Notes under the pieces: generated by a model | Seen by the model: only the letters and a program-made list of their open reading frames with translations | Told to the model about the DNA's origin: nothing | The model's database searches: none | Shown here: in pieces, positions 9,373 through 55,825 of the stretch | Position numbering within the stretch: position 1 is the first letter of the stretch | How the letters are laid out: each line of letters begins with the position of its first letter | Assembly: GCA_036924285.1 (NCBI GenBank) | Contig: JAYKYS010000005.1 | Span: forward strand, 2,170,001 to 2,234,000 | Source: Asterella californica | Lineage: Eukaryota > Streptophyta > Marchantiopsida > Marchantiales > Aytoniaceae | Direction: 5' to 3' | Length of the DNA: 64,000 nucleotides | Program-made: the position numbers and the translations under genes

Positions 9373-9585
9373 TGGAGATCGTCATTCGGATGGTGGAGAA
9401 GGCGGCGATGCGACTCAGGCTCATGATTACCTTGGGAGAGGAGATGGCACAAGAGGTGTTGTTACAACCATTTCCTTTCATTTTACCTATGGTAGATTAT
9501 TCTCGAATGGAATTGGTGATGTTCGTACTCTTTTAGCGAGTAGTTATTGCACGAAAATTAGAAGAGTAGAAGGAGTAGTTACAAG

Positions 9586-24679: not shown

Positions 24680-27232
24680 ACGCCCACCCTCACATGTTTG
24701 CATCCCCGCAAACATCGGCGCTTCAGCACTTCTGTTCACGTCCAGTACTTCTTGACACGCCACCCATTTACACGAGTGGTCATCAACGTACTATCTAATT
24801 CTTCCAACTGCAAGGAGCCATTGGTGAAGACCTCCAAGACGCGGTAAGGACCCATCCAGCGAAGATGAAGTTTTCCAGAGAACTTAAGATGTCGATTGTC
24901 GTAAAGAAGAACCAAGTCCCCATCTGTGACGGTCACCTTCTTCAGCTTCCCATCGTAGTTCACCTTACGTTGCGCTTGTACTTCGTACGTCTTCTCCAAA
25001 GCTGCATTCTTGTCTTCTTTGAACTCTACAAAGTTCAGAAGACGCTGCTCCTGGCTTTCCTCTTCTTCCATGCGTTCGGTTACGGCTAACCTGTAAGTAG
25101 GGACCTCTAACTCGACGGGCACAATAGGTGTCATGCCATAAGTTAGGTAGAAGGGTATCTTCTAGGTTGTGACTTTGGGTGAAATCCTGAAAGCTCATAA
25201 CACAGATGGCAATTTCGTGTCCCAATCATACGCATGGTTAACAGTTATCTTATTCAGGATATTACATAGAAGACCATTGGACTTTTCTGTCAGTCCGTTA
25301 GCTTCCGGGTTGTACGGCGTTGTCTTTTGATGCTTTATCCTGAAGTATTGGGTCAGGAGAAAAATAGTCTCATTTAAGAAATGAGTACCTCTATCTGATA
25401 CCAATTTCAGCGGACATCCGTATCGAGTGATAATGTTGTGCCAGAGGAACCTGGCTATCACTGCGGCGTCGGTCTTCCTTGTGGCTTCGTCTTCCACCAT
25501 CTTGGTAGCATAATGGGTATCTATCAAAATATATCGTGCTCGTGATCTCCTAGCCACCAGAGCGATAGACCCAACAAAGTCGATTTCCCACTTCTCAAAA
25601 GGAGCAAGCGGAAGAATAGGAGTAAGAGGCCACCTAGTAGTAGCTGTTGGTCTTCTCACCCTCTGGCACGCATCACATTTCCTGATCTTCTGAAAAGTGT
25701 CTCTGTACATGGGTCGACCACCAGTATCCGGCGTCCAACATCTTCTTCACTGTAATCTTCAGCCCGTAGTGACCCACAACATCTTCGTAGTGAAGACCCG
25801 TGATCACTGGCTTAATCTCTGAAGGCTCAAGGCATCTCCTTAGCTTCTCGTCATGTCCTTTCCTAAACAGGATACCCTGGAAGATGGCATAGGGACCTGT
25901 CTTGTGTAAGAAGACAATCTTCTGCTCCGCATCCAATCCCCCGGGATACTGTTGGTCTTCCAAGAACTTCTTCAAGTCCTTGAAGATCGATTCTTCTGTG
26001 AAAGTCGCAAAGACTGGATCAGAAGATCTAGTCTCGTCTTCTGGGAAGCAGGCTGTACGCACCTCCTCAGATGAAAGTGTCTCTGCGAAAACTGAAAACA
26101 GCTTTTCGTCAGAGAACTCGTCTTCCACTTCATCTTCTCGTCGTTCCGTCTCCAATCTGGATAGATAGTCAGCATTAACATGCTGTCTTCCAGGCCTGTA
26201 CTCAACGGTGTAAGTAAATTCCTGGAGTAGAAGAATCCACCTAGCTATCCTACCAGACAAATCTGCTTTTTTCACAAGATGTTTCAAAGAAAAATGATCC
26301 ACATAGAAGACAAACGGGTTGGCTAGAAGATAGTGCTTAAACTTCCTACATGAGTAAATCATGCCAAGACACTCCCTTTCAGTTGTAGAGTACTTCTTCT
26401 CTGCATCACTGAGTTGTCTTCCCGCATAGTAGATGGGATAATCCTTCTTCTTCTCATCTTTCTGACTCAATACCACCTCTATGACGAAAGCAGAAACATC
26501 CACATAAATATGGAAGACTCTCTCTCAATCAGATGGTCTTAGGACAAGGGATTCTGACAGAAGACTTTTCATGTCTTCGAATGCTTCATGCTGCTCAGAA
26601 GATCAAATGTAAGGTTCGTCCTTCTTCAGCAACTTGGTAAGTCTTCCTGCTACCTCTGCGTACATGTCAATAAACCTCATGTAGTATCCTACGTTGCCCA
26701 AGAAGCTTATCAACTGAGTCAGGTTAGCAGGTGGGTGAAGTTTCATGATGACCTCCACCTTAGCACAGTCGACTTCTATACCTCTTCCAGAAATCCTATG
26801 TCCTAGCAAAATTCTCTCTGACATACCAAAGAAGCACTTCTCAAGGTGAAGAGCCAAACGATGTTCTCTACACTTCAAAAAACACTTCCTTAGAAATATC
26901 AGGTGGTCTTCTTTCGATCCAAACACACAAAAATAATCCAAGAAGATCTCCATGAAAGAGCGAAGATACTTCTTGAAGATTGTAATCATCAATCTCTGGA
27001 ATGTAACGGGCGCGTTGCATAAACCAAATGGCATTTGGTTGTATGCATACGTGTCTCAATCAGTAGTGAAAGTGGTTTTCGACTTGTCTTCTTCTCTGAT
27101 TGAAACTTGGTTGTACCCAGAATACCCATCCAAGAATCTGTAGAACTCATGTCCTGCTACCTGGTCTAACACAGAATCGGTGAATGGTAAAGAATGATGA
27201 TCCTTTTTCGTGGTCAAGTTCAGCTTTCGGAA
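24680..27232 (-). pseudogene. pol: pol of the giant-LTR family (copy Ic): RT, RNase H, integrase
   Basis: Read leftwards from 27232: part of the reverse transcriptase (TKKD, then LDGYSGYNQV) with a Trp-to-TGA stop near 27060; MPFGLCNAPVTFQRLM (27034); a catalytic site reading FLDYF, so the second essential Asp of xxDD is Tyr; RNase H 26503-26100 (AGRQLSDAEKKYSTTE through HVNADYLSRLE); integrase with the HHCC region split by a frameshift near 25690, then IDF, VSDRG and GLTEKSN carrying the D, D and E residues (25590-25270); a frameshift near 25200; and a C-terminal module with MGPYRV ending at 24736. Gag, protease and the N-terminal RT are missing. At 27232 it is fused to an unrelated element fragment. 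Confidence 0.85.
24681..24693 (-). other. Polypurine tract before giant LTR Ib
   Basis: On the minus strand GTGAGGGTGGGCG lies just upstream of the LTR start (24676), after the integrase stop at 24736. It supports the assignment of 24676 as the LTR edge. Confidence 0.55.
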
Positions 27233-38285: not shown

Positions 38286-38602
38286 CGAGAGATCCGCGAA
38301 GACGAAGTCATTGATGGATTGGACAAGAAAAGACGCACAGATAAGTTGGACCAAGGAGGTAGATGATGCGTTTTGAACGATCAAATCTATTTTGTCAAAG
38401 GGGTTAGTTTTGAAGCTGCTGGAGTTTGACAAATCATTCGAGGTGCACATGAATGCGAGATGACTATGCGACTGACAGAGTGTTGGTGCAGGATGAAAAA
38501 CATGTAGCATACGAAAGCAAGAAGTTATTTGGGACAGAAAATTGATGACCTACTCACGAGAAGGAACTGTTTGCAGTGGTTCATTGCTTGAGGAAATGAC
38601 GG
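38286..38602 (+). pseudogene. pol: Chromovirus RT end and RNase H start
   Basis: Decayed frames give LLEFDKSFEVHMNA, RVLVQDEKHVAYESKKL and HEKELFAVVHCLRK, the standard chromovirus RNase H opening. The sequence stops at 38602, where the family III tandem begins, and resumes at 54368 (or 54372 after the duplicated ACGG) with RYYLDFTK-like sequence, so the insertion point is exact. Confidence 0.75.
38599..38602. other. Target-site duplication ACGG, left copy
   Basis: ACGG precedes the first LTR and is repeated at 54368-54371 after the third LTR. It therefore flanks the whole two-element array, not each element. Confidence 0.85.
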
Positions 38603-39885
38603 TGTCGCGCTACTTGGTGGCTACATGTTATATTTCTACTCCGACGCTTGAGTTTAGTAGTTCTAGAAGTTAGCTTATATTACTTCTAGTCGTTTATATA
38701 TATGTTTGACACCTTTGCATACGGTGTTAACACTATTTTGAGTCTTAGTAGGTTGATTACCATGTTGATAGGACTTAAGCTCATGGGTTGTATTTGCGTG
38801 TCGCCCATGCACGCTTTCTAGCTGATTTAAGTTATTTTTCGGGGCTACGTGTCATTTTAAGTAATTTAAGTTTTACGCTGACACTCTAGGGGGCTTGACG
38901 TGGTAGCCTATGAGTAAAACTAAGTTGCCACGTGGTTTATGGTACTAAAGGACAACCAAGTGGAGCTATGAACTCCCATTGGTCTGTTTTTGTCTTTTGT
39001 TAAACTCTAAATTTAGAAACAGAGCTCTAGAGTGGAGTTCGAGCATTTGGTGAGGGATTTTCGAAATCTGAGAGCACAGGGAGAGAGGGCTCGTCATGCC
39101 AAGCACTTCCAGTGAAAATTTCGATCGATTTGAGTCAATAAAGACGGAGTTATGAGCAATTGAAGTTCGGATTGTGCTAGAATTGAATCACTTTTGTTGG
39201 ATTTAGGGTTTTCAGTGTCACTCGCAGCAGATTTGAGGAAATTGCTTCAAAACTTCGAGGTTGTGTTCTCCGCCAGCAGGGCTACGATTTCACAAAAAGT
39301 TTCATATCGATTGAGCAACTGAGTAATTCAGGGCGGCCGCTGAAGCTGAGGGGGTCTGAAAAGCTCTTAATCTAGAGCAGCGACTTCAGAGGAGGAGATC
39401 TGCAGTTCTGTGTTCATTCAGGAGTCCCAACTTCACAGGGATGTTCAGCACCCTGTAGACTGCAAATCCTGTAAGAAACTTCGAAATTGATCGAGCCAAA
39501 CTCCTGTTATAGGTTGAAATAGCCAGCTAGGTACCAGAAATTGCCGTAGTTTTTTTGCTCAAAACTTTTCTGTTCATATCTCCGTGTCAGAATTTGATCT
39601 CAGGCTGAAATTTCGTCTGTGAGTTCAGTAGTACCTCATTTGCATGTAGGGGAAGTTTAGAGGTCTAAACCTTCATAGTTTTCTTCTCCGTGAGTGTCAA
39701 AGTTCGTCGCCGGATCCTATTACTGCCAGCTAGACCTGAATTTCGCCTTCTGGGTATATTACTAGATCTTACACATCTGTGTGAGTGTTTATAGCCCCTG
39801 TTGTAACCTGAAAGCCAACCTCTTGAGTGAACAACCACAGCCAGAAGCCCGGCGCTTTCCTAGGTAGACGGATTACACTCCGACA
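38603..39885 (+). repeat. Family III LTR 1 (outer left)
   Basis: 1283 bp. An inverted repeat CTAGAAGT/ACTTCTAG (38663-38670 and 38682-38689) precedes TATATATA at 38695-38702. There is a G-box CCACGTGG at 38928-38935 and an AATAAA at 39138-39143. Variant bases: T at 38618, G at 38798, C at 39253, T at 39684, T at 39707. Confidence 0.9.
38928..38935. promoter_or_regulatory. G-box CCACGTGG in the family III LTR
   Basis: A palindromic CCACGTGG, the core bound by plant bZIP and bHLH factors, about 325 bases into the LTR. Also present in LTR 2 and LTR 3 at the same offset. The function here is inferred from the motif only. Confidence 0.4.
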
Positions 39886-39896
39886 TACTCTCTTTT

Positions 39897-39913
39897 TGGT
39901 GAACTCGACGTGA
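39897..39913 (+). other. Primer binding site of family III, copy 1
   Basis: TGGTGAACTCGACGTGA, eleven bases after the LTR end and followed by AAAC. The old relative has TGGTGGACTCAACGTGA in the same place (60607-60591, minus strand). The tRNA is not identified. Copy 2 has the same site at 47138-47154. Confidence 0.65.
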
Positions 39914-39961
39914 AACACCTAGGGTGGGAGTTTTCTTGAGAGTGTTACAGGATCAGATATC

Positions 39962-42334
39962 ATGGCCAACCAAGGATCATCAAGTGGAGCTGCTGCTGCT
40001 GCTCAACAACCTGTTCAGTTGGATGCTGCTACGATGAAGATGTTCCAAGCTTTTTCCATGTTTATGCAGCAACAGCAGAGCACAGAGAGGAAGGAGGTAT
40101 TAGCAACCAAGGCGTTGCAATCTGTGGTGCATCAGATGGACCAGTTCAAGGGTACAGATATTTCCAAGTATGTGCGATACTATGCTAGGGAGATGGAGGT
40201 GAACAAGGTACCTGAGAAGGAGATGGTGGAGAACTTTGAACTTGCTGTTGTCCCTGAGATTCGTGGGCGTGTGAAGGAGCTCAAGCAGCAGCAAGGACAG
40301 AGTTGGGAGAGCTTTATGCGAGCTTTGAAGGAGGAGTACTACACTGAAGACTCAGAGAGGGTGACCAAGAGAACATTCTTGGAGTGGGTGGTGAAGCCTA
40401 ACAAAGGTTTGTCTGTAAATGAGTTGTTAAGGGAGTTTGATCGTCAATATGCTCAGCTTTCTAGGACAGAGAAGCTTACACTAGAGGTTGAGAAGACCGA
40501 GCTTTTCCTACAAGCAGCGGACGTGACTATTCAGGAGAAGCTTGAGCTGTTGCTGGAAGACAAGAGTGAGGAGAGAGGATTGAAGACTGATTGGAAGGAG
40601 GTCGAAGAGGCTGTCTCTTTGCTGACCAAGAGACAGAGAAGAAGGGACAAGGTGGTGGTAAGTGAAGCAGCACCTCTGATAATTCCTGTCAAGCAGTTGC
40701 CTACTAAGCCTGCTTTGGTAATTGCTAGAGAGGAAGACTCACCGCTTGATGAGTTGATTAAGGGTATGAAGGAGCTTAAGCTTAAGCTCATTAGGTTAGA
40801 AGAGAAGGAGCAGAATGTACAACCTGCTATGCAGAGACCTCAGATGAGGGAAGGCTTTGTTCATCGTTGTATATGGTGTGATAGCCTAGACCATGTAAGA
40901 AGAGATTGTGGAGAGTTTTCAGATGCATTGAGGAAGGATCTCATCTTCTTCAAAGATGGTAAGATCCATCTGAGAGAGACTGAGATGATGTTGGGAACCA
41001 ACTTTGGCAAGGGTGGTATGAAGAGACTTGTGAATGAGATATCAGCATCACATGCTGTTTCTCTTGTGAATGCTGCTACCTGTGGAGTGAAAGTGGAGAT
41101 GGAGAGAGAGAAAGGAACTACTGGGTTGTGGTCAGATGTAGTGCGGTCCGTAGCTAGAACAGAGCTAGACAAGGATGTGCTACGAAAGGTTGGCAACTCA
41201 ATTAGAGAAACTACAGGATGGAATGACCCTGTGGATACTATGTCAGTGCATGCTTATGTTGCAAGAAGTCAGCATGAAGCTCTACTAGAAGAAAAACGCA
41301 GGAGAGAGGATGCAGGTGAGGCTTCTACAGCCAAACGACCTGCTACAAGGAGTGAAAGGGCTAGACCAGAGGCAAGGCAGGAGACAACACCTACTCGGGA
41401 AGAGACTATGGAGGATCTACCACCTACAACATCAAAAGAGAAGGAGAGAAGCAAGGAGAAGGGTAAGATGCCTGCTTACAAACTTCAGTCTGACATTGAG
41501 ATTGCTACAGACTTGAAGCAGGTGTTAGAGAATCGTATCTTGAATGGGAAGGTTGAGTTTACTTTGGGTGAGATTCTTGGGATTGCAAAGCGTGAGTTCC
41601 ATGAGGTTATCATAGATATCATCAAGAGAAAACGTCAGATTTTGGGTGAAGCAGCTACGCTTAACGCTCTAGGGACCAAACTGTCGGAAGATGAGGAAGA
41701 TGAGATTGCTGGTTATTGCTCTCAAGTATCAGAGGGAAGATCAGATCAACACGTGAGGTTTGAAGATGAGGTGGAAGCATCGCAGAAGAGCCATTATTCT
41801 CACAACCATTGGACGAGAGCAACCACAGAGACCTTAGTGAAGCTGGGAGATCTAGAGGAACCTGTGGTGGCATTGATTGATCACGGTTCAGAGATTAATC
41901 TGATGTCTAAGGAGCTGTACAAGCGTGGGAGGTGGTCTATAGACACCGACCATGGGTGGCTTATCCGTGCTGCCAACAACCAGCGGGGAGAACTCTATGG
42001 TGCTTGTCCCAACATCAAGGTAACTGTGGGTGACATCAGTGATGTTCAGAATTTCTTTGTGCAAGACATGTCAACCTATCCTATCATTCTAGGGCAACCT
42101 TACATTACTGCTGTTAGAATGGAGACACGAGTTATGGATGATGGTTCAGCCTATGCTAGGATACGTAGTAGAGACGACAAAAGAGCTGTTCAGTTTTTGA
42201 CCGTTGCTGCAGAACATGAGAGGAATCATGATAACTTGAGAGACCGTCCACTGCCTAAGATTACTCAGGAGTTTAGAGAGTCTAGGGGTTTTGGCAGAGT
42301 ACCATTGAAGAGCGAGACTTCAACAGTACAGTAG
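39962..42334 (+). CDS. gag-pro: Family III gag-protease, copy 1
   Basis: An intact 790-residue ORF from an ATG 76 bases after the LTR. Poly-Ala/Gln N-terminus; helical capsid-like region (residues 50-230); zinc knuckle CIWCDSLDHVRRDC (303-316); charged linker; a conserved block VEFTLGEILGIAKREFHEVI (about 530-550); then an Asp protease with ALIDHGSEINLM (D640; His replaces the usual Ser or Thr of D-S/T-G) and the second motif ILGQPYI. Its last 49 bases overlap the pol frame, which is read at -1. It assembles particles and processes the polyprotein. Pol would be made only by frameshifting at 42286-42292. Confidence 0.9.
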   Translation: MANQGSSSGAAAAAQQPVQLDAATMKMFQAFSMFMQQQQSTERKEVLATKALQSVVHQMDQFKGTDISKYVRYYAREMEVNKVPEKEMVENFELAVVPEIRGRVKELKQQQGQSWESFMRALKEEYYTEDSERVTKRTFLEWVVKPNKGLSVNELLREFDRQYAQLSRTEKLTLEVEKTELFLQAADVTIQEKLELLLEDKSEERGLKTDWKEVEEAVSLLTKRQRRRDKVVVSEAAPLIIPVKQLPTKPALVIAREEDSPLDELIKGMKELKLKLIRLEEKEQNVQPAMQRPQMREGFVHRCIWCDSLDHVRRDCGEFSDALRKDLIFFKDGKIHLRETEMMLGTNFGKGGMKRLVNEISASHAVSLVNAATCGVKVEMEREKGTTGLWSDVVRSVARTELDKDVLRKVGNSIRETTGWNDPVDTMSVHAYVARSQHEALLEEKRRREDAGEASTAKRPATRSERARPEARQETTPTREETMEDLPPTTSKEKERSKEKGKMPAYKLQSDIEIATDLKQVLENRILNGKVEFTLGEILGIAKREFHEVIIDIIKRKRQILGEAATLNALGTKLSEDEEDEIAGYCSQVSEGRSDQHVRFEDEVEASQKSHYSHNHWTRATTETLVKLGDLEEPVVALIDHGSEINLMSKELYKRGRWSIDTDHGWLIRAANNQRGELYGACPNIKVTVGDISDVQNFFVQDMSTYPIILGQPYITAVRMETRVMDDGSAYARIRSRDDKRAVQFLTVAAEHERNHDNLRDRPLPKITQEFRESRGFGRVPLKSETSTVQ

Positions 42335-42349
42335 AGCTAGGATTCTCGC
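42286..42349 (+). promoter_or_regulatory. Predicted -1 ribosomal frameshift site with H-type pseudoknot
   Basis: In the gag-pro frame the heptamer is G GGT TTT (42286-42292), an exact X XXY YYZ slippery site. The -1 frame has a TAG at 42283-42285 and opens precisely at the heptamer, continuing into pol. Twelve bases on, TTGAAG (42305-42310) pairs with CTTCAA (42318-42323). The loop between contains GCGAGA (42312-42317), which pairs with TCTCGC (42344-42349). This gives an H-type pseudoknot with loop 1 of one base, no inter-stem base and a 20-base loop 3. The spacer is longer than the usual five to nine. An identical site lies in copy 2. Confidence 0.75.
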
Positions 42350-45300
42350 CTGATCCAGTAGAGCAGGAAGCTTTATCCACTAGCTTCTTAGGATTGACGT
42401 CATATGGATCAGTGTGTTATAGGAAGGTTGAGAATCTGAAGAGGTTTGAGAGACAACATGTGAAGTATGTACAACAATCTTTGATAGATAGTGGAGAGTT
42501 AGCCGGAGATGAATACATATCTGGAGTGTTTGAAGAGCAGTATTTGGTAGATACTATAGGGGAGTTGAAATCTATAGTAGAAAGTTCTATAGATGATGTA
42601 GATAGAGTGGTGAGAGTGAGCTCCAAGGAGCTTTATGATGTAATTGATAAGTTTATAGATCGGCAAGAGGTGTATGTGGAGACCAAGTACAAGTCAGTGG
42701 CAAAGAAAGTCAAACCAATGGCTTTGCCTTTGCCACTCGATTACAATCAGAAGATGGAGCAAGCTGCACGAGAACCGACGCTCAGAGGACCGAGAAGAAT
42801 TGGGCACCAGTTCACAGAAACAACACTGAAGGACCTGAGGATTGGAGGTGATGGATTTCTTACTGAGCAAGAGAAGAAGAGCTTCAGGAAGATGCTATCT
42901 AGGCATGGTAAGGCGTTTGCGTTTGAGTCACATGAAGTAGGATGTGTAGATCCAAGTGTAGTTTCACCTATGGTAATCTTTACTATACCGCATGTGCCTT
43001 GGAATTGACGTCCTATCCCTGTACCTAGAGCTCATCTACCAAAGTTGATAGACTTGCTCAATGAGAGGATTAGGATGGGTATCTTGGAACCATCTATAGC
43101 TCCCTACTCTAGCAGATGGTTTACTATTCCGAAGAAGAGTGGAGCTTTGAGATTCATTCAAGATATGCAGCCAGTTAACAAGGTGACTATCAAGAATATG
43201 GGTATAGGACCTATTGTAGACGAGTTTGCATAGGCTTTTGCTGGTCGTGCTATCTATTCAATGGGAGACTTATATTCAGGTTACGATCAGTTTCAGTTAT
43301 CCTCTGAGAGTAGAGACTTGACTACAATGAGGACACCTTTGGGGTTACTAAGGATGTGCACCTTGCCACAAGGTGCTACCAATTCTGTAGCACATATGAT
43401 GAATGGCATGAATAAAGTTTTGAGGGATTTCATTCCTGAAAAAACTATGCCATTCCTTGATGATGTGCCGATCAAAGGGTGTGCTGAGGAGGAGAAGAAT
43501 GAGGTAATGGATCAGAGGGGGTGCCGTAAGTTTGTTGCAGATCACATAGCCGACTGTGATAAGATATTGAGTCGACTGGAGGAGGTTCATTTGACTTTAT
43601 CAGGAGCAAAGTCTGTATTTGGAGAACAGGAGGTGTTAATAGTGGGACATCTGTGTGGATCTTATGGTCGGAAACCTTGTCCAAACAAAGTTGATGCCAT
43701 CCGAAGGATGAAGGAGACATGTGGATCGGTTACTGAGGTGAGAAGGTTTCTAGGTGCATGTGTGTTTTATCATATATGGATTCCACACTTTGCACATGTA
43801 GCAGATCCGTTGTACAAGTTGCTGAGGAAGGGGCAGAGATTTCAGTGGCAAGAGGAGCAAAGCGAGTCTATGAAGAAGTTGAAGGATCTGTTGTCTTCAC
43901 CACCAACTCTACGGAAGATAACATATGAGTTGGGCAGACCTGTTATCCTTACTGTTGATACTAGTCCTATTGGCATTGGGTGGGCTATAGGACAAGATGA
44001 TAAGGATGGAAATAGATATGTGGTGCGTTTTGGTGCTAAGGTCTTAAGTTCACGGCAGAGAGACTACCCTCAGGTCAAGAGAGAGCTATGGGGAGTAGTT
44101 ACTACGATGAAGAGTGACAAGGAATACTTGATAGGAGCACCTGTGGTTGTGGAGACAGATTGCTTACCTCTCTTGGGAATGATCACTAGCTGTACAACTC
44201 CAGATATTGCTATGTTGAGGTGGATAGCATATATCAAGTCCTTGAACCCAGAGTTTAAACATATTGCAGGAAAAGACAATCCTGTGGCAGATATGTTATC
44301 AAGGGCTAGATATTACGATGAGAAAGAAATGATAGATGATCAGGAGGATGTGGAAATAGAGTTCTATTCTAGTGCTCTTGCTAGAAGGGATGGAAGCTGT
44401 TTTGCAGCCTCGTTGGAGTTTTTTGAGGAAACTGTGTATGATGGCGAGTGGTTGGATCTTGGGCGCTATTTGAGTTCACTGGAAAGGCAAGAAGGCTGGT
44501 CTGATGCAGATTTCAAGAGGATTCGTAGAATAGCTTATGGTTACTTTTTACATGGAGGACATCTATGGAAGCGCCCTAAGCTACAAGGAGGTATACCGCA
44601 ACGGGTGGTATGTGACTTGGGATTGCAGCAGCAGCTGATCAAGGAGTTTCATGAGAGTTTATGGGCCGGTCATAGAGGAGTTTGGGCTACATTTGCCAAG
44701 ATGAAGGAAAAGTATTGGTGGAAGGGTATGTATAAGGATGTAGTGCAGTTTGTTTCATCCTGTATACCTTGCCAGATGTATTCCAGCGTACGTCATCGTG
44801 ATGGATTGCATCCTACTTATCCTTTAGCCATTCATTACAAATGGGTAGTTGATCTGGTAACTATGCCATTTGGACTTGGACAAATGAGGTATCTAGTCTT
44901 GGCTAGAGAAGATCTATCTAACCAAGTCGAAGGCCGTGCCCTGAGGACAAAGAACACTGCTAGTGTCTGCCGCTTTCTACTTGAAGATGTTATTTGTAGG
45001 TATGGGTGTGTGGGAAAGATCACTGCAGATAGGGGTGAGCTGGATTCACAAGAAGCAGTTGAGTTCTTCAAGCGATTGGGAATCAAGTTGGCGTTAACCA
45101 CTGCTTACAATCCTGAAGGGAATGGCAAGAGCGAACGAGGTCATCCGCCAATCATCAAAGCTTTGGTAAAAGCTTGCAAGGATAAGATCCGTGAATGGCC
45201 TAGAGTGCTACCATTTGCTTTGTGGGCAGATCGTACAACTCGTAGTACCGTGACAGGTTACATGCAGCAGAGTTGATACTAGGGCAAAAACCTGTGATGC

Positions 45301-45797
45301 CGATTGAGGAGGTTGTGCCTACTTGGAATGTTTTGCCATGGGAAGATGGTAGAAGTACGGAGGATCTTCTTGCATTAAGGATCCAACAGTTAGAACGGAG
45401 ACCTGAGGATGTTGCCAAAGCTGTGGAAAGGTTGAAGACTGCTAGAGAGAGAAACAAAGGCAGATTTGATAGAACGCATAGATTACGACCCAAACCAGTT
45501 AAAGAAGGTGATTGGGTGTTAGTCTATGATAGTAGTCTTGATAATCAGCATAGCACTATCAGAAAGTTCTCCAAGAGATGGTTTGGACCTTATGTGGTGT
45601 TAGAAGTTTATGATAATGCCACATACTCCTTGAGAGAGTTAGATGGTGCAGTGCTCAAGATCCCAGTCGCAGGAAAGAGAATCAAGCTCTTTAGAAGGAG
45701 AGGGGAGGATCGGAACGTTGCAGAGTTTACAGAGGATGAAGCTGAAGACTCAATGCAGGTTGAAGATGAGTTTGAAGCCGAAGCTGAAGAGTCTTGA
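42286..45797 (+). pseudogene. pol: Family III pol, copy 1: RT, RNase H, integrase
   Basis: The frame is entered at 42286. Order: linker; RT starting near 42950 (FTIPHVPWN, ILEPSIAPYSSRWFTIPKK, DLYSGYDQFQL, catalytic FLDD at 43453-43464); RNase H (LTVDTSPIGIGW, then DMLSRARYYD); integrase with an HHCC region (WAGHRGVW through SCIPCQ) and D, D, E in VVDLV, TADRGE and NGKSERGH; a C-terminal module with WFGPYVV, ending at 45797. Lesions shared with copy 2: TGA at 43006-43008, TAG at 43231-43233 and a one-base loss near 45265 that shifts the last 174 codons. The old relative has Leu and Glu codons at the two stops, so they are mutations. Otherwise it is well preserved. Confidence 0.85.
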
Positions 45798-45831
45798 TCT
45801 GGATGGCACATACCGGAGGATGTGCAGGTTC

Positions 45832-45843
45832 AGAGGGGATGGA
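45832..45843 (+). other. Polypurine tract of family III, copy 1
   Basis: AGAGGGGATGGA directly precedes LTR 2. The same tract precedes LTR 3 at 53073-53084. Confidence 0.65.
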
Positions 45844-47126
45844 TGTCGCGCTACTTGGCGGCTACATGTTATATTTCTACTCCGACGCTTGAGTTTAGTA
45901 GTTCTAGAAGTTAGCTTATATTACTTCTAGTCGTTTATATATATGTTTGACACCTTTGCATACGGTGTTAACACTATTTTGAGTCTTAGTAGGTTGATTA
46001 CCATGTTGATAGGACTTAAGCTCATGGGTTGTATTTGCATGTCGCCCATGCACGCTTTCTAGCTGATTTAAGTTATTTTTCGGGGCTACGTGTCATTTTA
46101 AGTAATTTAAGTTTTACGCTGACACTCTAGGGGGCTTGACGTGGTAGCCTATGAGTAAAACTAAGTTGCCACGTGGTTTATGGTACTAAAGGACAACCAA
46201 GTGGAGCTATGAACTCCCATTGGTCTGTTTTTGTCTTTTGTTAAACTCTAAATTTAGAAACAGAGCTCTAGAGTGGAGTTCGAGCATTTGGTGAGGGATT
46301 TTCGAAATCTGAGAGCACAGGGAGAGAGGGCTCGTCATGCCAAGCACTTCCAGTGAAAATTTCGATCGATTTGAGTCAATAAAGACGGAGTTATGAGCAA
46401 TTGAAGTTCGGATTGTGCTAGAATTGAATCACTTTTGTTGGATTTAGGGTTTTCAGTGTCACTCGCAGCAGATTTGAGGAAATTGCTTCAAAAATTCGAG
46501 GTTGTGTTCTCCGCCAGCAGGGCTACGATTTCACAAAAAGTTTCATATCGATTGAGCAACTGAGTAATTCAGGGCGGCCGCTGAAGCTGAGGGGGTCTGA
46601 AAAGCTCTTAATCTAGAGCAGCGACTTCAGAGGAGGAGATCTGCAGTTCTGTGTTCATTCAGGAGTCCCAACTTCACAGGGATGTTCAGCACCCTGTAGA
46701 CTGCAAATCCTGTAAGAAACTTCGAAATTGATCGAGCCAAACTCCTGTTATAGGTTGAAATAGCCAGCTAGGTACCAGAAATTGCCGTAGTTTTTTTGCT
46801 CAAAACTTTTCTGTTCATATCTCCGTGTCAGAATTTGATCTCAGGCTGAAATTTCGTCTGTGAGTTCAGTAGTACCTCATTTGCATGTAGGGGAAGTTTA
46901 GAGGTCTAAACCTTCATAGTTTTCTTCTCCGTGAGTGTCAAAGTTCGTCGCCGGATCCTATTACTGCCAGCTAGACCTGAATTTCGCCTTCTGGGTATAT
47001 TACTAGATCTTACACATCTGTGTGAGTGTTTATAGCCCCTGTTGTAACCTGAAAGCCAACCTCTTGAGTGAACAACCACAGCCAGAAGCCCGGCGCTTTC
47101 CTAGGTAGACGGATTACACTCCGACA
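45844..47126 (+). repeat. Family III LTR 2 (middle, mosaic)
   Basis: 1283 bp. At LTR offsets 16 and 196 it carries C and A, like LTR 3. At offsets 1082 and 1105 it carries T and T, like LTR 1. At offset 651 it has a private A (46494). This is the expected pattern for a crossover between a 3' LTR and a 5' LTR somewhere between offsets 196 and 1082. Confidence 0.9.
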
Positions 47127-47202
47127 TACTCTCTTTTTGGTGAACTCGACGTGAAACACCTAGGGTGGGAGTTTTCTTGAGAGTGTTACAGGATCAGATA
47201 TC

Positions 47203-49575
47203 ATGGCCAACCAAGGATCATCAAGTGGAGCTGCTGCTGCTGCTCAGCAACCTGTTCAGTTGGATGCTGCTACGATGAAGATGTTCCAAGCTTTTTCCAT
47301 GTTTATGCAGCAACAGCAGAGCACAGAGAGGAAGGAGGTATTAGCAACCAAGGCGTTGCAATCTGTGGTGCATCAGATGGACCAGTTCAAGGGTACAGAT
47401 ATTTCCAAGTATGTGCGATACTATGCTAGGGAGATGGAGGTGAACAAGGTACCTGAGAAGGAGATGGTGGAGAACTTTGAACTTGCTGTTGTCCCTGAGA
47501 TTCGTGGGCGTGTGAAGGAGCTCAAGCAGCAGCAAGGACAGAGTTGGGAGAGCTTTATGCGAGCTTTGAAGGAGGAGTACTACACTGAAGACTCAGAGAG
47601 GGTGACCAAGAGAACATTCTTGGAGTGGGTGGTGAAGCCTAACAAAGGTTTGTCTGTAAATGAGTTGTTAAGGGAGTTTGATCGTCAATATGCTCAGCTT
47701 TCTAGGACAGAGAAGCTTACACTAGAGGTTGAGAAGACCGAGCTTTTCCTACAAGCAGCGGACGTGACTATTCAGGAGAAGCTTGAGCTGTTGCTGGAAG
47801 ACAAGAGTGAGGAGAGAGGATTGAAGACTGATTGGAAGGAGGTCGAAGAGGCTGTCTCTTTGCTGACCAAGAGACAGAGAAGAAGGGACAAGGTGGTGGT
47901 AAGTGAAGCAGCACCTCTGATAATTCCTGTCAAGCAGTTGCCTACTAAGCCTGCTTTGGTAATTGCTAGAGAGGAAGACTCACCGCTTGATGAGTTGATT
48001 AAGGGTATGAAGGAGCTTAAGCTTAAGCTCATTAGGTTAGAAGAGAAGGAGCAGAATGTACAACCTGCTATGCAGAGACCTCAGATGAGGGAAGGCTTTG
48101 TTCATCGTTGTATATGGTGTGATAGCCTAGACCATGTAAGAAGAGATTGTGGAGAGTTTTCAGATGCATTGAGGAAGGATCTCATCTTCTTCAAAGATGG
48201 TAAGATCCATCTGAGAGAGACTGAGATGATGTTGGGAACCAACTTTGGCAAGGGTGGTATGAAGAGACTTGTGAATGAGATATCAGCATCACATGCTGTT
48301 TCTCTTGTGAATGCTGCTACCTGTGGAGTGAAAGTGGAGATGGAGAGAGAGAAAGGAACTACTGGGTTGTGGTCAGATGTAGTGCGGTCCGTAGCTAGAA
48401 CAGAGCTAGACAAGGATGTGCTACGAAAGGTTGGCAACTCAATTAGAGAAACTACAGGATGGAATGACCCTGTGGATACTATGTCAGTGCATGCTTATGT
48501 TGCAAGAAGTCAGCATGAAGCTCTACTAGAAGAAAAACGCAGGAGAGAGGATGCAGGTGAGGCTTCTACAGCCAAACGACCTGCTACAAGGAGTGAAAGG
48601 GCTAGACCAGAGGCAAGGCAGGAGACAACACCTACTCGGGAAGAGACTATGGAGGATCTACCACCTACAACATCAAAAGAGAAGGAGAGAAGCAAGGAGA
48701 AGGGTAAGATGCCTGCTTACAAACTTCAGTCTGACATTGAGATTGCTACAGACTTGAAGCAGGTGTTAGAGAATCGTATCTTGAATGGGAAGGTTGAGTT
48801 TACTTTGGGTGAGATTCTTGGGATTGCAAAGCGTGAGTTCCATGAGGTTATCATAGATATCATCAAGAGAAAACGTCAGATTTTGGGTGAAGCAGCTACG
48901 CTTAACGCTCTAGGGACCAAACTGTCGGAAGATGAGGAAGATGAGATTGCTGGTTATTGCTCTCAAGTATCAGAGGGAAGATCAGATCAACACGTGAGGT
49001 TTGAAGATGAGGTGGAAGCATCGCAGAAGAGCCATTATTCTCACAACCATTGGACGAGAGCAACCACAGAGACCTTAGTGAAGCTGGGAGATCTAGAGGA
49101 ACCTGTGGTGGCATTGATTGATCACGGTTCAGAGATTAATCTGATGTCTAAGGAGCTGTACAAGCGTGGGAGGTGGTCTATAGACACCGACCATGGGTGG
49201 CTTATCCGTGCTGCCAACAACCAGCGGGGAGAACTCTATGGTGCTTGTCCCAACATCAAGGTAACTGTGGGTGACATCAGTGATGTTCAGAATTTCTTTG
49301 TGCAAGACATGTCAACCTATCCTATCATTCTAGGGCAACCTTACATTACTGCTGTTAGAATGGAGACACGAGTTATGGATGATGGTTCAGCCTATGCTAG
49401 GATACGTAGTAGAGACGACAAAAGAGCTGTTCAGTTTTTGACCGTTGCTGCAGAACATGAGAGGAATCATGATAACTTGAGAGACCGTCCACTGCCTAAG
49501 ATTACTCAGGAGTTTAGAGAGTCTAGGGGTTTTGGCAGAGTACCATTGAAGAGCGAGACTTCAACAGTACAGTAG
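47203..49575 (+). CDS. gag-pro: Family III gag-protease, copy 2
   Basis: Encodes the same 790-residue protein as copy 1; the only base change seen is a silent A-to-G in a Gln codon at 47247. All motifs (zinc knuckle, DHGSEIN protease, ILGQPYI) are present. It overlaps the pol frame by 49 bases. Confidence 0.9.
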   Translation: MANQGSSSGAAAAAQQPVQLDAATMKMFQAFSMFMQQQQSTERKEVLATKALQSVVHQMDQFKGTDISKYVRYYAREMEVNKVPEKEMVENFELAVVPEIRGRVKELKQQQGQSWESFMRALKEEYYTEDSERVTKRTFLEWVVKPNKGLSVNELLREFDRQYAQLSRTEKLTLEVEKTELFLQAADVTIQEKLELLLEDKSEERGLKTDWKEVEEAVSLLTKRQRRRDKVVVSEAAPLIIPVKQLPTKPALVIAREEDSPLDELIKGMKELKLKLIRLEEKEQNVQPAMQRPQMREGFVHRCIWCDSLDHVRRDCGEFSDALRKDLIFFKDGKIHLRETEMMLGTNFGKGGMKRLVNEISASHAVSLVNAATCGVKVEMEREKGTTGLWSDVVRSVARTELDKDVLRKVGNSIRETTGWNDPVDTMSVHAYVARSQHEALLEEKRRREDAGEASTAKRPATRSERARPEARQETTPTREETMEDLPPTTSKEKERSKEKGKMPAYKLQSDIEIATDLKQVLENRILNGKVEFTLGEILGIAKREFHEVIIDIIKRKRQILGEAATLNALGTKLSEDEEDEIAGYCSQVSEGRSDQHVRFEDEVEASQKSHYSHNHWTRATTETLVKLGDLEEPVVALIDHGSEINLMSKELYKRGRWSIDTDHGWLIRAANNQRGELYGACPNIKVTVGDISDVQNFFVQDMSTYPIILGQPYITAVRMETRVMDDGSAYARIRSRDDKRAVQFLTVAAEHERNHDNLRDRPLPKITQEFRESRGFGRVPLKSETSTVQ

Positions 49576-49590
49576 AGCTAGGATTCTCGC
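49527..49590 (+). promoter_or_regulatory. Predicted -1 frameshift site, copy 2
   Basis: The same heptamer (49527-49533), stems (49546-49551 with 49559-49564; 49553-49558 with 49585-49590) and loops as in copy 1. Being a recent duplicate it adds no independent evidence. The old relative at 58456-58500 does. Confidence 0.75.
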
Positions 49591-52500
49591 CTGATCCAGT
49601 AGAGCAGGAAGCTTTATCCACTAGCTTCTTAGGATTGACGTCATATGGATCAGTGTGTTATAGGAAGGTTGAGAATCTGAAGAGGTTTGAGAGACAACAT
49701 GTGAAGTATGTACAACAATCTTTGATAGATAGTGGAGAGTTAGCCGGAGATGAATACATATCTGGAGTGTTTGAAGAGCAGTATTTGGTAGATACTATAG
49801 GGGAGTTGAAATCTATAGTAGAAAGTTCTATAGATGATGTAGATAGAGTGGTGAGAGTGAGCTCCAAGGAGCTTTATGATGTAATTGATAAGTTTATAGA
49901 TCGGCAAGAGGTGTATGTGGAGACCAAGTACAAGTCAGTGGCAAAGAAAGTCAAACCAATGGCTTTGCCTTTGCCACTCGATTACAATCAGAAGATGGAG
50001 CAAGCTGCACGAGAACCGACGCTCAGAGGACCGAGAAGAATTGGGCACCAGTTCACAGAAACAACACTGAAGGACCTGAGGATTGGAGGTGATGGATTTC
50101 TTACTGAGCAAGAGAAGAAGAGCTTCAGGAAGATGCTATCTAGGCATGGTAAGGCGTTTGCGTTTGAGTCACATGAAGTAGGATGTGTAGATCCAAGTGT
50201 AGTTTCACCTATGGTAATCTTTACTATACCGCATGTGCCTTGGAATTGACGTCCTATCCCTGTACCTAGAGCTCATCTACCAAAGTTGATAGACTTGCTC
50301 AATGAGAGGATTAGGATGGGTATCTTGGAACCATCTATAGCTCCCTACTCTAGCAGATGGTTTACTATTCCGAAGAAGAGTGGAGCTTTGAGATTCATTC
50401 AAGATATGCAGCCAGTTAACAAGGTGACTATCAAGAATATGGGTATAGGACCTATTGTAGACGAGTTTGCATAGGCTTTTGCTGGTCGTGCTATCTATTC
50501 AATGGGAGACTTATATTCAGGTTACGATCAGTTTCAGTTATCCTCTGAGAGTAGAGACTTGACTACAATGAGGACACCTTTGGGGTTACTAAGGATGTGC
50601 ACCTTGCCACAAGGTGCTACCAATTCTGTAGCACATATGATGAATGGCATGAATAAAGTTTTGAGGGATTTCATTCCTGAAAAAACTATGCCATTCCTTG
50701 ATGATGTGCCGATCAAAGGGTGTGCTGAGGAGGAGAAGAATGAGGTAATGGATCAGAGGGGGTGCCGTAAGTTTGTTGCAGATCACATAGCCGACTGTGA
50801 TAAGATATTGAGTCGACTGGAGGAGGTTCATTTGACTTTATCAGGAGCAAAGTCTGTATTTGGAGAACAGGAGGTGTTAATAGTGGGACATCTGTGTGGA
50901 TCTTATGGTCGGAAACCTTGTCCAAACAAAGTTGATGCCATCCGAAGGATGAAGGAGACATGTGGATCGGTTACTGAGGTGAGAAGGTTTCTAGGTGCAT
51001 GTGTGTTTTATCATATATGGATTCCACACTTTGCACATGTAGCAGATCCGTTGTACAAGTTGCTGAGGAAGGGGCAGAGATTTCAGTGGCAAGAGGAGCA
51101 AAGCGAGTCTATGAAGAAGTTGAAGGATCTGTTGTCTTCACCACCAACTCTACGGAAGATAACATATGAGTTGGGCAGACCTGTTATCCTTACTGTTGAT
51201 ACTAGTCCTATTGGCATTGGGTGGGCTATAGGACAAGATGATAAGGATGGAAATAGATATGTGGTGCGTTTTGGTGCTAAGGTCTTAAGTTCACGGCAGA
51301 GAGACTACCCTCAGGTCAAGAGAGAGCTATGGGGAGTAGTTACTACGATGAAGAGTGACAAGGAATACTTGATAGGAGCACCTGTGGTTGTGGAGACAGA
51401 TTGCTTACCTCTCTTGGGAATGATCACTAGCTGTACAACTCCAGATATTGCTATGTTGAGGTGGATAGCATATATCAAGTCCTTGAACCCAGAGTTTAAA
51501 CATATTGCAGGAAAAGACAATCCTGTGGCAGATATGTTATCAAGGGCTAGATATTACGATGAGAAAGAAATGATAGATGATCAGGAGGATGTGGAAATAG
51601 AGTTCTATTCTAGTGCTCTTGCTAGAAGGGATGGAAGCTGTTTTGCAGCCTCGTTGGAGTTTTTTGAGGAAACTGTGTATGATGGCGAGTGGTTGGATCT
51701 TGGGCGCTATTTGAGTTCACTGGAAAGGCAAGAAGGCTGGTCTGATGCAGATTTCAAGAGGATTCGTAGAATAGCTTATGGTTACTTTTTACATGGAGGA
51801 CATCTATGGAAGCGCCCTAAGCTACAAGGAGGTATACCGCAACGGGTGGTATGTGACTTGGGATTGCAGCAGCAGCTGATCAAGGAGTTTCATGAGAGTT
51901 TATGGGCCGGTCATAGAGGAGTTTGGGCTACATTTGCCAAGATGAAGGAAAAGTATTGATGGAAGGGTATGTATAAGGATGTAGTGCAGTTTGTTTCATC
52001 CTGTATACCTTGCCAGATGTATTCCAACGTACGTCATCGTGATGGATTGCATCCTACTTATCCTTTAGCCATTCATTACAAATGGGTAGTTGATCTGGTA
52101 ACTATGCCATTTGGACTTGGACAAATGAGGTATCTAGTCTTGGCTAGAGAAGATCTATCTAACCAAGTCGAAGGCCGTGCCCCGAGGACAAAGAACACTG
52201 CTAGTGTCTGCCGCTTTCTACTTGAAGATGTTATTTGTAGGTATGGGTGTGTGGGAAAGATCACTGCAGATAGGGGTGAGCTGGATTCACAAGAAGCAGT
52301 TGAGTTCTTCAAGCGATTGGGAATCAAGTTGGCGTTAACCACTGCTTACAATCCTGAAGGGAATGGCAAGAGCGAACGAGGTCATCCGCCAATCATCAAA
52401 GCTTTGGTAAAAGCTTGCAAGGATAAGATCCGTGAATGGCCTAGAGTGCTACCATTTGCTTTGTGGGCAGATCGTACAACTCGTAGTACCGTGACAGGTT

Positions 52501-53038
52501 ACATGCAGCAGAGTTGATACTAGGGCAAAAACCTGTGATGCCGATTGAGGAGGTTGTGCCTACTTGGAATGTTTTGCCATGGGAAGATGGTAGAAGTACG
52601 GAGGATCTTCTTGCATTAAGGATCCAACAGTTAGAACGGAGACCTGAGGATGTTGCCAAAGCTGTGGAAAGGTTGAAGACTGCTAGAGAGAGAAACAAAG
52701 GCAGATTTGATAGAACGCATAGATTACGACCCAAACCAGTTAAAGAAGGTGATTGGGTGTTAGTCTATGATAGTAGTCTTGATAATCAGCATAGCACTAT
52801 CAGAAAGTTCTCCAAGAGATGGTTTGGACCTTATGTGGTGTTAGAAGTTTATGATAATGCCACATACTCCTTGAGAGAGTTAGATGGTGCAGTGCTCAAG
52901 ATCCCAGTCGCAGGAAAGAGAATCAAGCTCTTTAGAAGGAGAGGGGAGGATCGGAACGTTGCAGAGTTTACAGAGGATGAAGCTGAAGACTCAATGCAGG
53001 TTGAAGATGAGTTTGAAGCCGAAGCTGAAGAGTCTTGA
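49527..53038 (+). pseudogene. pol: Family III pol, copy 2
   Basis: Same layout as copy 1, with the three shared lesions (TGA at 50247-50249, TAG at 50472-50474, one-base loss near 52506). A further Trp-to-TGA change at 51957-51959 cuts the integrase zinc-binding region. Two missense changes follow in the integrase: Ser to Asn (52027) and Leu to Pro (52183). Confidence 0.85.
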
Positions 53039-53084
53039 TCTGGATGGCACATACCGGAGGATGTGCAGGTTCAGAGGGGATGGA

Positions 53085-54367
53085 TGTCGCGCTACTTGGC
53101 GGCTACATGTTATATTTCTACTCCGACGCTTGAGTTTAGTAGTTCTAGAAGTTAGCTTATATTACTTCTAGTCGTTTATATATATGTTTGACACCTTTGC
53201 ATACGGTGTTAACACTATTTTGAGTCTTAGTAGGTTGATTACCATGTTGATAGGACTTAAGCTCATGGGTTGTATTTGCATGTCGCCCATGCACGCTTTC
53301 TAGCTGATTTAAGTTATTTTTCGGGGCTACGTGTCATTTTAAGTAATTTAAGTTTTACGCTGACACTCTAGGGGGCTTGACGTGGTAGCCTATGAGTAAA
53401 ACTAAGTTGCCACGTGGTTTATGGTACTAAAGGACAACCAAGTGGAGCTATGAACTCCCATTGGTCTGTTTTTGTCTTTTGTTAAACTCTAAATTTAGAA
53501 ACAGAGCTCTAGAGTGGAGTTCGAGCATTTGGTGAGGGATTTTCGAAATCTGAGAGCACAGGGAGAGAGGGCTCGTCATGCCAAGCACTTCCAGTGAAAA
53601 TTTCGATCGATTTGAGTCAATAAAGACGGAGTTATGAGCAATTGAAGTTCGGATTGTGCTAGAATTGAATCACTTTTGTTGGATTTAGGGTTTTCAGTGT
53701 CACTCGCAGCAGATTTGAGGAAATTGCTTCAAAACTTCGAGGTTGTGTTCTCCGCCAGCAGGGCTACGATTTCACAAAAAGTTTCATATCGATTGAGCAA
53801 CTGAGTAATTCAGGGCGGCCGCTGAAGCTGAGGGGGTCTGAAAAGCTCTTAATCTAGAGCAGCGACTTCAGAGGAGGAGATCTGCAGTTCTGTGTTCATT
53901 CAGGAGTCCCAACTTCACAGGGATGTTCAGCACCCTGTAGACTGCAAATCCTGTAAGAAACTTCGAAATTGATCGAGCCAAACTCCTGTTATAGGTTGAA
54001 ATAGCCAGCTAGGTACCAGAAATTGCCGTAGTTTTTTTGCTCAAAACTTTTCTGTTCATATCTCCGTGTCAGAATTTGATCTCAGGCTGAAATTTCGTCT
54101 GTGAGTTCAGTAGTACCTCATTTGCATGTAGGGGAAGTTTAGAGGTCTAAACCTTCATAGTTTTCCTCTCCGTGAGTGTCAAAGTTCGCCGCCGGATCCT
54201 ATTACTGCCAGCTAGACCTGAATTTCGCCTTCTGGGTATATTACTAGATCTTACACATCTGTGTGAGTGTTTATAGCCCCTGTTGTAACCTGAAAGCCAA
54301 CCTCTTGAGTGAACAACCACAGCCAGAAGCCCGGCGCTTTCCTAGGTAGACGGATTACACTCCGACA
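53085..54367 (+). repeat. Family III LTR 3 (outer right)
   Basis: 1283 bp, ending CCGACA at 54367 and followed by ACGG. It differs from LTR 1 at four positions by eye: C at 53100, A at 53280, C at 54166, C at 54189. It is the boundary that shows where LTRs end and the body begins (the body continues TACTCTC). Confidence 0.9.
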
Positions 54368-55825
54368 ACGGTATTATTTGGACTTCACAAAATCCAAGCG
54401 TACACCGACAATATTTCACTCAAGTATTTTTAAACAAAAGATCGGATGACGCCAAAGCAGTTACGGTGGTATGATACTTTGACGCTCATGAATGTAGAAT
54501 TAATCCACAAAGTGAGAAAAACAATGTGGTTCTCGACGTCTTGAGTCATAAGGAGGAATATCTTTCATCGTCGACATAGATTTCTCGAGCTATGTATCCT
54601 AAGGAGTCACACTTGGAGAGGTGAATACATGAAGGTTACACGGACGAGAACCAAGCGAAGGAATACATGGAACAGCTCAAGTGAGGAGTGAAGTTGCAGA
54701 ACATGCAGCTTAGACATGGATTACTTATGTACAAGCAAAGTTGAGTTTATGTGGGACAAGGAACACTTAGGACTAAGTTGCTCAAAGAGTGTCAAGATGC
54801 GTCTTTTATCAAGCCATAAATGAGAAAATTCCACTTTAGCAGTGATAGCTAAAAGGTTTCATTGACCTCACATGAAAGACGATGTTGCCCACTTTGTGAA
54901 AACATGCGTAACTTGTCAACCGAACCGAGTTTCTTATGTGAAGAAACAAGGATTGCTTCTTTCTTTGCCGATTCCAACCAGACCTTGAGAAATCATCAAC
55001 ATGAACTTCATAACGTCAATGTCAGAGTTGTGATAGTTGACTATCACAAAGATTGCATTATATCTGTTTGAGTCTAAGTTGAGGACTAAGTAAAATTCAA
55101 TATCGCTTTTCATCTGATGAACAAACGGAACAAGCTAATTTGGTTCTGAATCAATACTTGAAGAATTATCTGAGCGCGGACCAAAATGACTGGGCCGAGT
55201 GGCTCAGTCTTGCAAAGTATTGCTACAATTTCATGAAGCATTTAACAACAGACGAATCACCTTTCTTGCTGACTTACGGACGTGTGTCAGAATGACCTCT
55301 TGACTTGACTCTTGCTGGGAGTTCTACATCAGCACGACCAAGACACGCCAAACATCAGTTGAAGAGTTGGTGGTAGAAATGTAGTGGTGCGAAAAACAAG
55401 TGAAAAAGAACCTCGATAAAGTACAACAACGTTACACAAAGTAGGTAAACAAGCATCGGTGACAAGTGAAGTTTCAAATGGACGAAGTAGTATGGTTAAG
55501 TACGAAGAATTTCATTGTGTGAAGATCTCTATACTTTAGACTTTCCGCTCGGTGGTAGTTGCATCCGACCTTCTATATTTTTTTATTAAAGAAATACTTC
55601 AAAGATTATTTGCAATCGAAGTGCAAACAAGTTTTCATGCCTCAACTTGATGTCGTGCAAGGTGAAGCAGAATACGAGGTGGAGATCATTTTGCGATCGT
55701 GATACTAATCCAACCGAAAGGAGTACTTGATCAAATGGTATGGATACCATTTGAAGGAAGCAACTTGGGTGCCAAAGGAAGACTTAGAACATGCAAGTGA
55801 AGTATTGGACTTCTTCAAATGGTGA
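54368..55825 (+). pseudogene. pol: Chromovirus RNase H end, integrase and chromodomain
   Basis: Decayed frames give AYTDNISLKYF and TPKQLRWYDTL (RNase H end, 54400-54480), SHKEE (54550), an integrase zinc region (FVKTCVTCQPNRVSYV, about 54890-54940), IPTRP..INMNFIT (about 54970-55010), and DEQTEQANLVLNQYLKNYL with WAEWLSLAKYCYN (about 55120-55230). The C-terminus at 55663-55825 reads EYEVEIILRS, then KEYLIKWYGYHLKEATWVPKEDL and LDFFKW before TGA. This is a chromodomain, which in chromoviruses guides integration to marked chromatin. It defines the element as a chromovirus. Confidence 0.8.

Follow-up and report, generated by a model that had tools for sequence, protein, structure and literature searches.

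The window, a 64,000-nucleotide stretch of DNA of Asterella californica (contig JAYKYS010000005.1), contains a Ty3-type retrotransposon in which pol appears to be made by -1 ribosomal frameshifting at the junction with gag-pro, and the same mode of expression seems to operate across a Phygy-like Ty3 lineage. The probability of such frameshifting in the element is put at about 0.93, the slippage itself and its rate being deduced from sequence. The frameshift had been proposed in an original prediction made from the window, and it is supported by further copies of the family, by a second family of the same genome, by most gag-pro/pol junctions of distant relatives and by the recurrence of predicted pseudoknots. 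One mRNA would give rise to two products. The majority of ribosomes would translate gag-pro as far as the TAG at 42332, and a fraction would pause at an H-type pseudoknot beginning 6 nt past the heptamer G GGU UUU. The paused ribosomes would slip one base back, their two tRNAs pairing anew with GGG and UUU, and from there would translate the -1 frame, yielding Gag-Pro-Pol. RT-RNase H-integrase would be produced at a minor level and the protease, because it is encoded upstream of the shift, at the level of Gag. In alpharetroviruses, too, protease is made at the Gag level and RT-RNase H-integrase is minor.

The element is present as a tandem array of the type LTR-internal-LTR-internal-LTR (38603-54367; Table 1). 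The LTRs show 3-4 differences among them, and the tandem units are 99.88% identical across 8524 bases. Tandem LTR-retrotransposons with a common middle LTR and a single target duplication are already described in the accessible part of PMC11899658. The window also holds a different Ty3-type element at 9562-14472, with gag-pol as one 1636-aa ORF, and, according to the ORF list, fragmented remains of an additional Ty3-like pol on the minus strand at 25195-27055.

Table 1. Features of the tandem array and of the predicted frameshift cassette (window coordinates)
Feature	Position	Strand	Remarks
Left target-site duplication ACGG	38599..38602	.	4 bp; pairs with 54368-54371; flanks the array as a whole
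5' LTR of the array	38603..39885	+	1283 bp
Other two LTRs of the array	45844-47126; 53085-54367		
gag-pro ORF	39962..42334	+	ATG 39962 to TAG 42332-42334; CCHC knuckle spotted by visual inspection; ALIDHGS motif like that of a protease
TAG closing the -1 frame directly upstream of the shift site	42283..42285	+	In 48/48 distinct same-family copies
Slippery heptamer G GGU UUU (putative)	42286..42292	+	
Spacer	42293..42298	+	6 nt; invariant in 50 distinct copies
Predicted stem 1, 5' strand	42299..42310	+	42299-42302 and 42305-42310, with an internal loop between them in the window copy
Predicted stem 2, 5' strand GCGAGA	42312..42317	+	Inside the stem 1 loop
Predicted stem 1, 3' strand	42318..42329	+	
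Predicted stem 2, 3' strand TCTCGC	42344..42349	+	Closes the pseudoknot
pol N-terminal part, -1 frame	42286..43008	+	Ended by TGA 43006-43008; 38-48% identical to L001-L006
Continuation of the pol frame between TGA 43006-43008 and TAG 43231-43233	43009..43233	+	RT; broken in both units
pol RT-RNase H-integrase part	43234..45276	+	Frame unchanged
pol C-terminal part	45246..45797	+	Beyond the frame disruption
gag-pro, second unit	47164-49575		Open frame
Identical cassette, second unit	49527..49590	+	75 bases compared from 49527

The order protease-RT-RNase H-integrase, the LTRs and the target duplication are those of Ty3/gypsy elements (Metaviridae). Pfam domains of RT, RNase H and the integrase zinc-binding domain were found in pol, the integrase core scoring just under the Pfam cut-off, and the best match of RT-RNase H-integrase among solved structures is the yeast Ty3 polyprotein 7q5b (also 4ol8). 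The protease was assigned by its motif alone; an ALIDHGS-like motif (D-H-G) is present in the window and in five of the six relatives L001-L006, with D-Q-G in L004, the usual protease motif being D-[ST]-G. DUF4100 is matched weakly by the part of the gag-pro ORF between gag and protease (Pfam, 28.8 bits vs. a cut-off of 27.9).

The pol of both units is broken by the two stops listed in Table 1 and by a frame change at about 45246-45276 (near 45262), and the second unit has one stop more than the first. Judging by the sequences, the frame disruption before the C-terminal part is a lesion: relatives L001, L003, L004 and L006 run across this point in a single frame. With pol broken in both units, no full Pol can come from this locus, and it is therefore the relatives that decide between the possible readings.

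The letters and position of GGGTTTT, read as G GGT TTT by gag-pro, are as originally reported, and the -1 frame of the window is indeed shut by the upstream TAG and opens at the heptamer. No other in-frame heptamer of the form X XXY YYZ (second triplet AAA or TTT, last base any) occurs at any of the 801 codon positions in gag-pro, and codon shuffles gave an expectation of 0.038 heptamers in the 16-codon overlap. The -1 frame contains no Met before residue 145, and the zero frame is closed a second time one codon beyond its first stop.

The pairing of TTGAAG (42305-42310) with CTTCAA (42318-42323) was confirmed. This 6-bp stem had been described as starting 12 bases past the heptamer; the stem is present, but the spacer is 6 nt, since a lower stem GUAC/GUAC (42299-42302 with 42326-42329), which lengthens stem 1, had been overlooked. 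The pairing of the GCGAGA loop with the downstream TCTCGC was likewise recovered, but the whole loop is AGCGAGA, with one nucleotide ahead of stem 2. Plain folding of the window cassette without a knot was unremarkable (z -0.50; z +0.27 in a second run), and the window had no Rfam hit reaching the gathering thresholds. As plain minimum free energy folding was not significant, a pseudoknot score of our own was used, which sums stacking energies and internal-loop penalties, includes no hairpin or pseudoknot penalty and allows spacers of 3-12 nt, a range picked after the folds had been seen. The score of the window pseudoknot was matched by 4 of 2000 dinucleotide shuffles. In the sliding-window control, which was run for five lineages, 15 of the 1147 75-nt stretches elsewhere in the window element score as high. 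Given the ordinary plain fold and these equally scoring stretches, the structure judged on the window alone is suggestive without being proven; it is the relatives that make the modelled structure a strong one.

Relatives were searched for in the genome to which the window belongs (773 contigs, 516.7 Mb), and copies were sampled non-randomly from ranked lists that comprised 40, 150, 150 and 150 scored copies out of 1767, 9539, 8815 and 9445 first-look candidates. The family is very large: the pol N-terminus search returned the 9539 candidates, of which 150 were scored, and a count by eye gave 47 of these 150 with a stop-free pol frame of exactly 1170 aa. Loss of the heptamer was looked for in 84 sampled junctions of the same family. 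GGGTTTT is kept in 81 of them, two more have GGATTTT and one has a one-base deletion; by batch, the numbers of GGGTTTT, GGATTTT and deletion are 46, 1 and 1 of 48, then GGGTTTT in 20 of 20, and 15 GGGTTTT with one GGATTTT of 16. The frames were read in 48 distinct copies (60 loci reduced, the window units counted once), and in 36 short stretches (L095-L114, L119-L134) the reading covered the cassette letters only. The -1 overlap of gag-pro and pol was found in 46 of the 48 copies, and the zero-frame stop lies 15 codons past the heptamer in 46 of the 48. Both frames are open to the edge of the compared DNA in 18 distinct copies; in the remaining 30, gag, pol or both are interrupted by a stop inside that DNA. 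Gag and pol in one frame were seen in none of these 48 copies, nor in the four second-family copies or the eight MAG-contig junctions described below.

Sequence diversity was assessed in 50 distinct copies, to which 80 loci were reduced (L119-L134 lie outside this set). Minor letters have a mean frequency of 0 in the spacer and 0.003 in the heptamer, and for stems 1 and 2 the means are 0.011 and 0.010; in loop 3 the value amounts to 0.047, in a gag-only stretch to 0.017 and in a pol-only stretch to 0.027. Variation is low in the stem pairs and highest in loop 3, and one stem 1 position that is unpaired in the window copy is paired in most of the 50. Two-frame coding may be behind part of the conservation of the cassette.

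Pol also lies in the -1 frame in all four copies read (L115-L118) of a second family in that genome. The heptamer of this family is GGGTTTT in three copies and GGATTTT in one, and the spacer is 7 nt. The predicted knot is quite unlike that of the window, with CACTCTTG/CAAGAGTG as stem 1 and CGGGAT/ATCCCG as stem 2, and its score was reached by 4-6 of 2000 shuffles.

Distant relatives were found by a scan of prokaryote genomes, which revealed six loci with RT-core relatives at 71-80% identity, all on contigs from two cyanobacterial MAGs; scans of viral contigs found no relatives. Five of the six loci are labelled Trichormus (L001-L004 and L006) and one Synechococcales (L005), and a seventh locus, L014, came from the Trichormus MAG in a separate search. 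The Ty3 contigs of both MAGs look eukaryotic and were taken for contaminants of the species-representative genome set. The Trichormus bin probably derives from a water-fern sample, because Azolla houses such a symbiont, as the accessible part of PMC5901025 describes. Compared with the window, the relatives in these contigs are 36-54% identical in gag-pro, and their pol N-termini are 38-48% identical. Pol is in one frame over 1172 aa in L001, 1163 aa in L003 and 1106 aa in L006.

Six of the eight MAG junctions are plainly -1. In L001, L002, L003 and L005, G GAT TTT is followed at once by a stop (GAT TTT TAA/TAG/TGA), an arrangement seen in neither family of the window's genome, and both junctions of L004 are -1 at G GAT TTC. 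These G GAT TTT/TTC sites fit the X XXY YYZ form loosely, and L006 is without such a heptamer. In L006, despite a strong pseudoknot, pol stands in a +1/-2 relation to gag-pro, a state interpreted as a lesion. The site of L014 is GGATTTC and its frames are locally -1; a frame change earlier in its gag means that gag and pol overall are not in a -1 relation.

Conservation of both stems, which had been suggested as a check, was looked for in these relatives, and the stems persist there as predicted structures with changed sequence. Stem 2 is GGGACA/TGTCCC in L001, GGGAC/GTCCC in L002 (a core identical to that of L001), TGCGGGG/CCCCGCA in L003, GGGGA/TCCCC in L005, CAAGG/CCTTG in L004b and TGAGGGT/ACCCTCG, with one G-U pair, in L006. 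The spacers of the predicted H-type pseudoknots are 5-6 nt in L003, L004, L005 and L006. By our own scorer, the spacers of L001 and L002 (3-4 nt) fall outside the much-studied range of 5-9 nt (PMC5009743, in its accessible part), that of L014 is at its upper limit of 9 nt, and the predicted window pseudoknot lies within it at 6 nt. Native scores were reached by 1 of 2000 shuffles in L001, 1 in L002, 2 in L004b and none in L003, L005 and L006; the knots of L004a (31) and L014 (86) are weak. In the position control, the number of other stretches scoring equally was 2 of 1079 for L001, 0 of 1081 for L003, 0 of 1053 for L006 and 0 of 699 for L005.

The strands of the stems were also exchanged among lineages in an arm-swap test, from which L004a and L014 were excluded because these copies are decayed and in which L115 stands for the second family. 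With eight lineages, the native pairing of stem 1 was the sole best of 40320 assignments, and for stem 2 four of 40320 assignments, the native one included, were as good; with seven lineages the numbers were 1 of 5040 for stem 1 and 2 of 5040 for stem 2. Overall, the loop of one lineage pairs less well with another lineage's downstream strand than with its own. Taken singly, foreign stem 2 pairs can be of equal or higher stability, as for the loops of L005 and L002 with certain other strands. The recurrence of the knot, together with the arm-swap result, amounts to covariation in the plain sense and is hard to explain without selection for the knot.

A random lesion could in principle have produced the same picture in the window if the family truly had a single gag-pol ORF and the window copy had lost a base in the run of G and T. 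Homopolymer runs are prone to indels, both window units carry further lesions in pol, and the other Ty3 element of the window is indeed a single ORF. The relatives, however, show the two-frame layout again and again, in the 46 of 48 distinct copies, in the second family (4/4) and in the six of eight MAG junctions, and pol is open over at least 1100 aa in L001, L003 and L006. On this evidence a lesion in a single ORF was rejected, and its probability is negligible. Only marginally more probable is another shift, +1 or -2, or readthrough of a stop codon. The +1/-2 relation in L006 would fit such a shift, and the stop directly after UUU in L001, L002, L003 and L005 could favour stop-linked slippage; against this, pol is in the -1 frame in both families of the window's genome as well as in most MAG junctions, and readthrough would stay in the zero frame, in the window a frame that is shut again one codon past the first stop.

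Splicing of the mRNA or re-initiation might also supply Pol, the heptamer then being incidental. The plant elements EVADE and BARE1 splice gag vs. gag-pol (PMC12786077), and Ogre does likewise (PMC6317226), as stated in the accessible parts of these sources. The 144 Met-free residues of the window -1 frame count against re-initiation, and a heptamer with a sequence-changing pseudoknot is conserved where the frames meet, which speaks against both routes. Splicing or re-initiation is thus very unlikely, if the least improbable of these alternatives, and -1 frameshifting remains the preferred reading.

As for the classification, matching 4-bp NCGN target duplications were found in nine of ten other copies, and in the tenth the two flanks are both NCGN but differ from each other; the duplication of the window is ACGG. 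The Pfam scan of the end piece of pol found no chromodomain. Duplications of 4-bp NCGN are singled out for Phygy elements in the accessible part of PMC6317226. Phygy-like is therefore the best label for the element. The Physcomitrium RLG1 lineage was excluded, RLG1 having a chromodomain (PMC7466625, in its accessible part). Phygy itself, a non-chromovirus Ty3/gypsy element of Physcomitrella (Neumann et al. 2019, PMC6317226, as far as accessible), is alike in its NCGN duplications, in having no chromodomain and in coding that fills most of the internal part.

Phygy is known from a moss, and according to the accessible part of PMC6317226 some groups possess two ORFs; a -1 shift is not named there. 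In the sources as far as the literature search covered them, nothing was found on a -1 shift between gag and pol in Ty3 elements of mosses or ferns. In the 2003 survey, as summarised in the accessible part of PMC5009743, separate frames occur in two types of plant element, both with pol in +1. We lean slightly towards the view that the whole Phygy-like clade (non-chromovirus Ty3 elements of non-seed land plants, with those on the probably fern-derived contigs among them) keeps a retrovirus-style gag-pro/-1 pol shift with a pseudoknot that changes fast and is rebuilt. If this is true, the survey view that plant Ty3 elements avoid -1 would be overturned, and plant ribosomes would serve the shift from thousands of genomic copies. 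The conserved cassette, with its thousands of candidate copies, would offer a -1 signal native to plants, along with natural variation in its parts. The family would also exemplify a plant element with the control of the Gag-to-Pol ratio usually described for animal elements and retroviruses.

In alpharetroviruses the shift takes place after the protease part and before RT, as it would in the window element. Rous sarcoma virus, which represents this layout, is also alike in having pol in -1 behind gag and a stimulatory pseudoknot (PMC5009743, in the part accessible). It differs in host and in element lineage, and the sites used by the window element and its relatives are G GGU UUU and G GAU UUU. 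Many animal LTR retrotransposons with a -1 shift belong to Ty3/gypsy. The animal LTR retrotransposons of the 2003 survey, mostly from Drosophila, resemble the window element in having pol in -1 and a classical heptamer. On mammalian ribosomes, G_GGU_UUU ranks with the heptamers that shift most, according to the accessible part of PMC5009743, which also summarises that survey. The same source gives G_GAU_UUU as the -1 site of pea enation mosaic virus, where a nearby downstream stop codon matters. The combination of this heptamer with a close stop is strikingly like that of L001, L002, L003 and L005, although the virus uses a long-distance RNA contact (as described there) and the window element has a predicted compact H-type knot. 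The single-ORF organisation of plant Ty3 elements, with gag and pol in one frame, differs from that of the window family, the second family and the MAG junctions. Yeast Ty3 is the best structural match to the window pol, but it uses a +1 shift at another type of site (PMC5009743, in its accessible part). The frameshift design itself is already known, and its setting in a Ty3 lineage of a plant lies outside the 2003 survey as summarised in the accessible part of PMC5009743.
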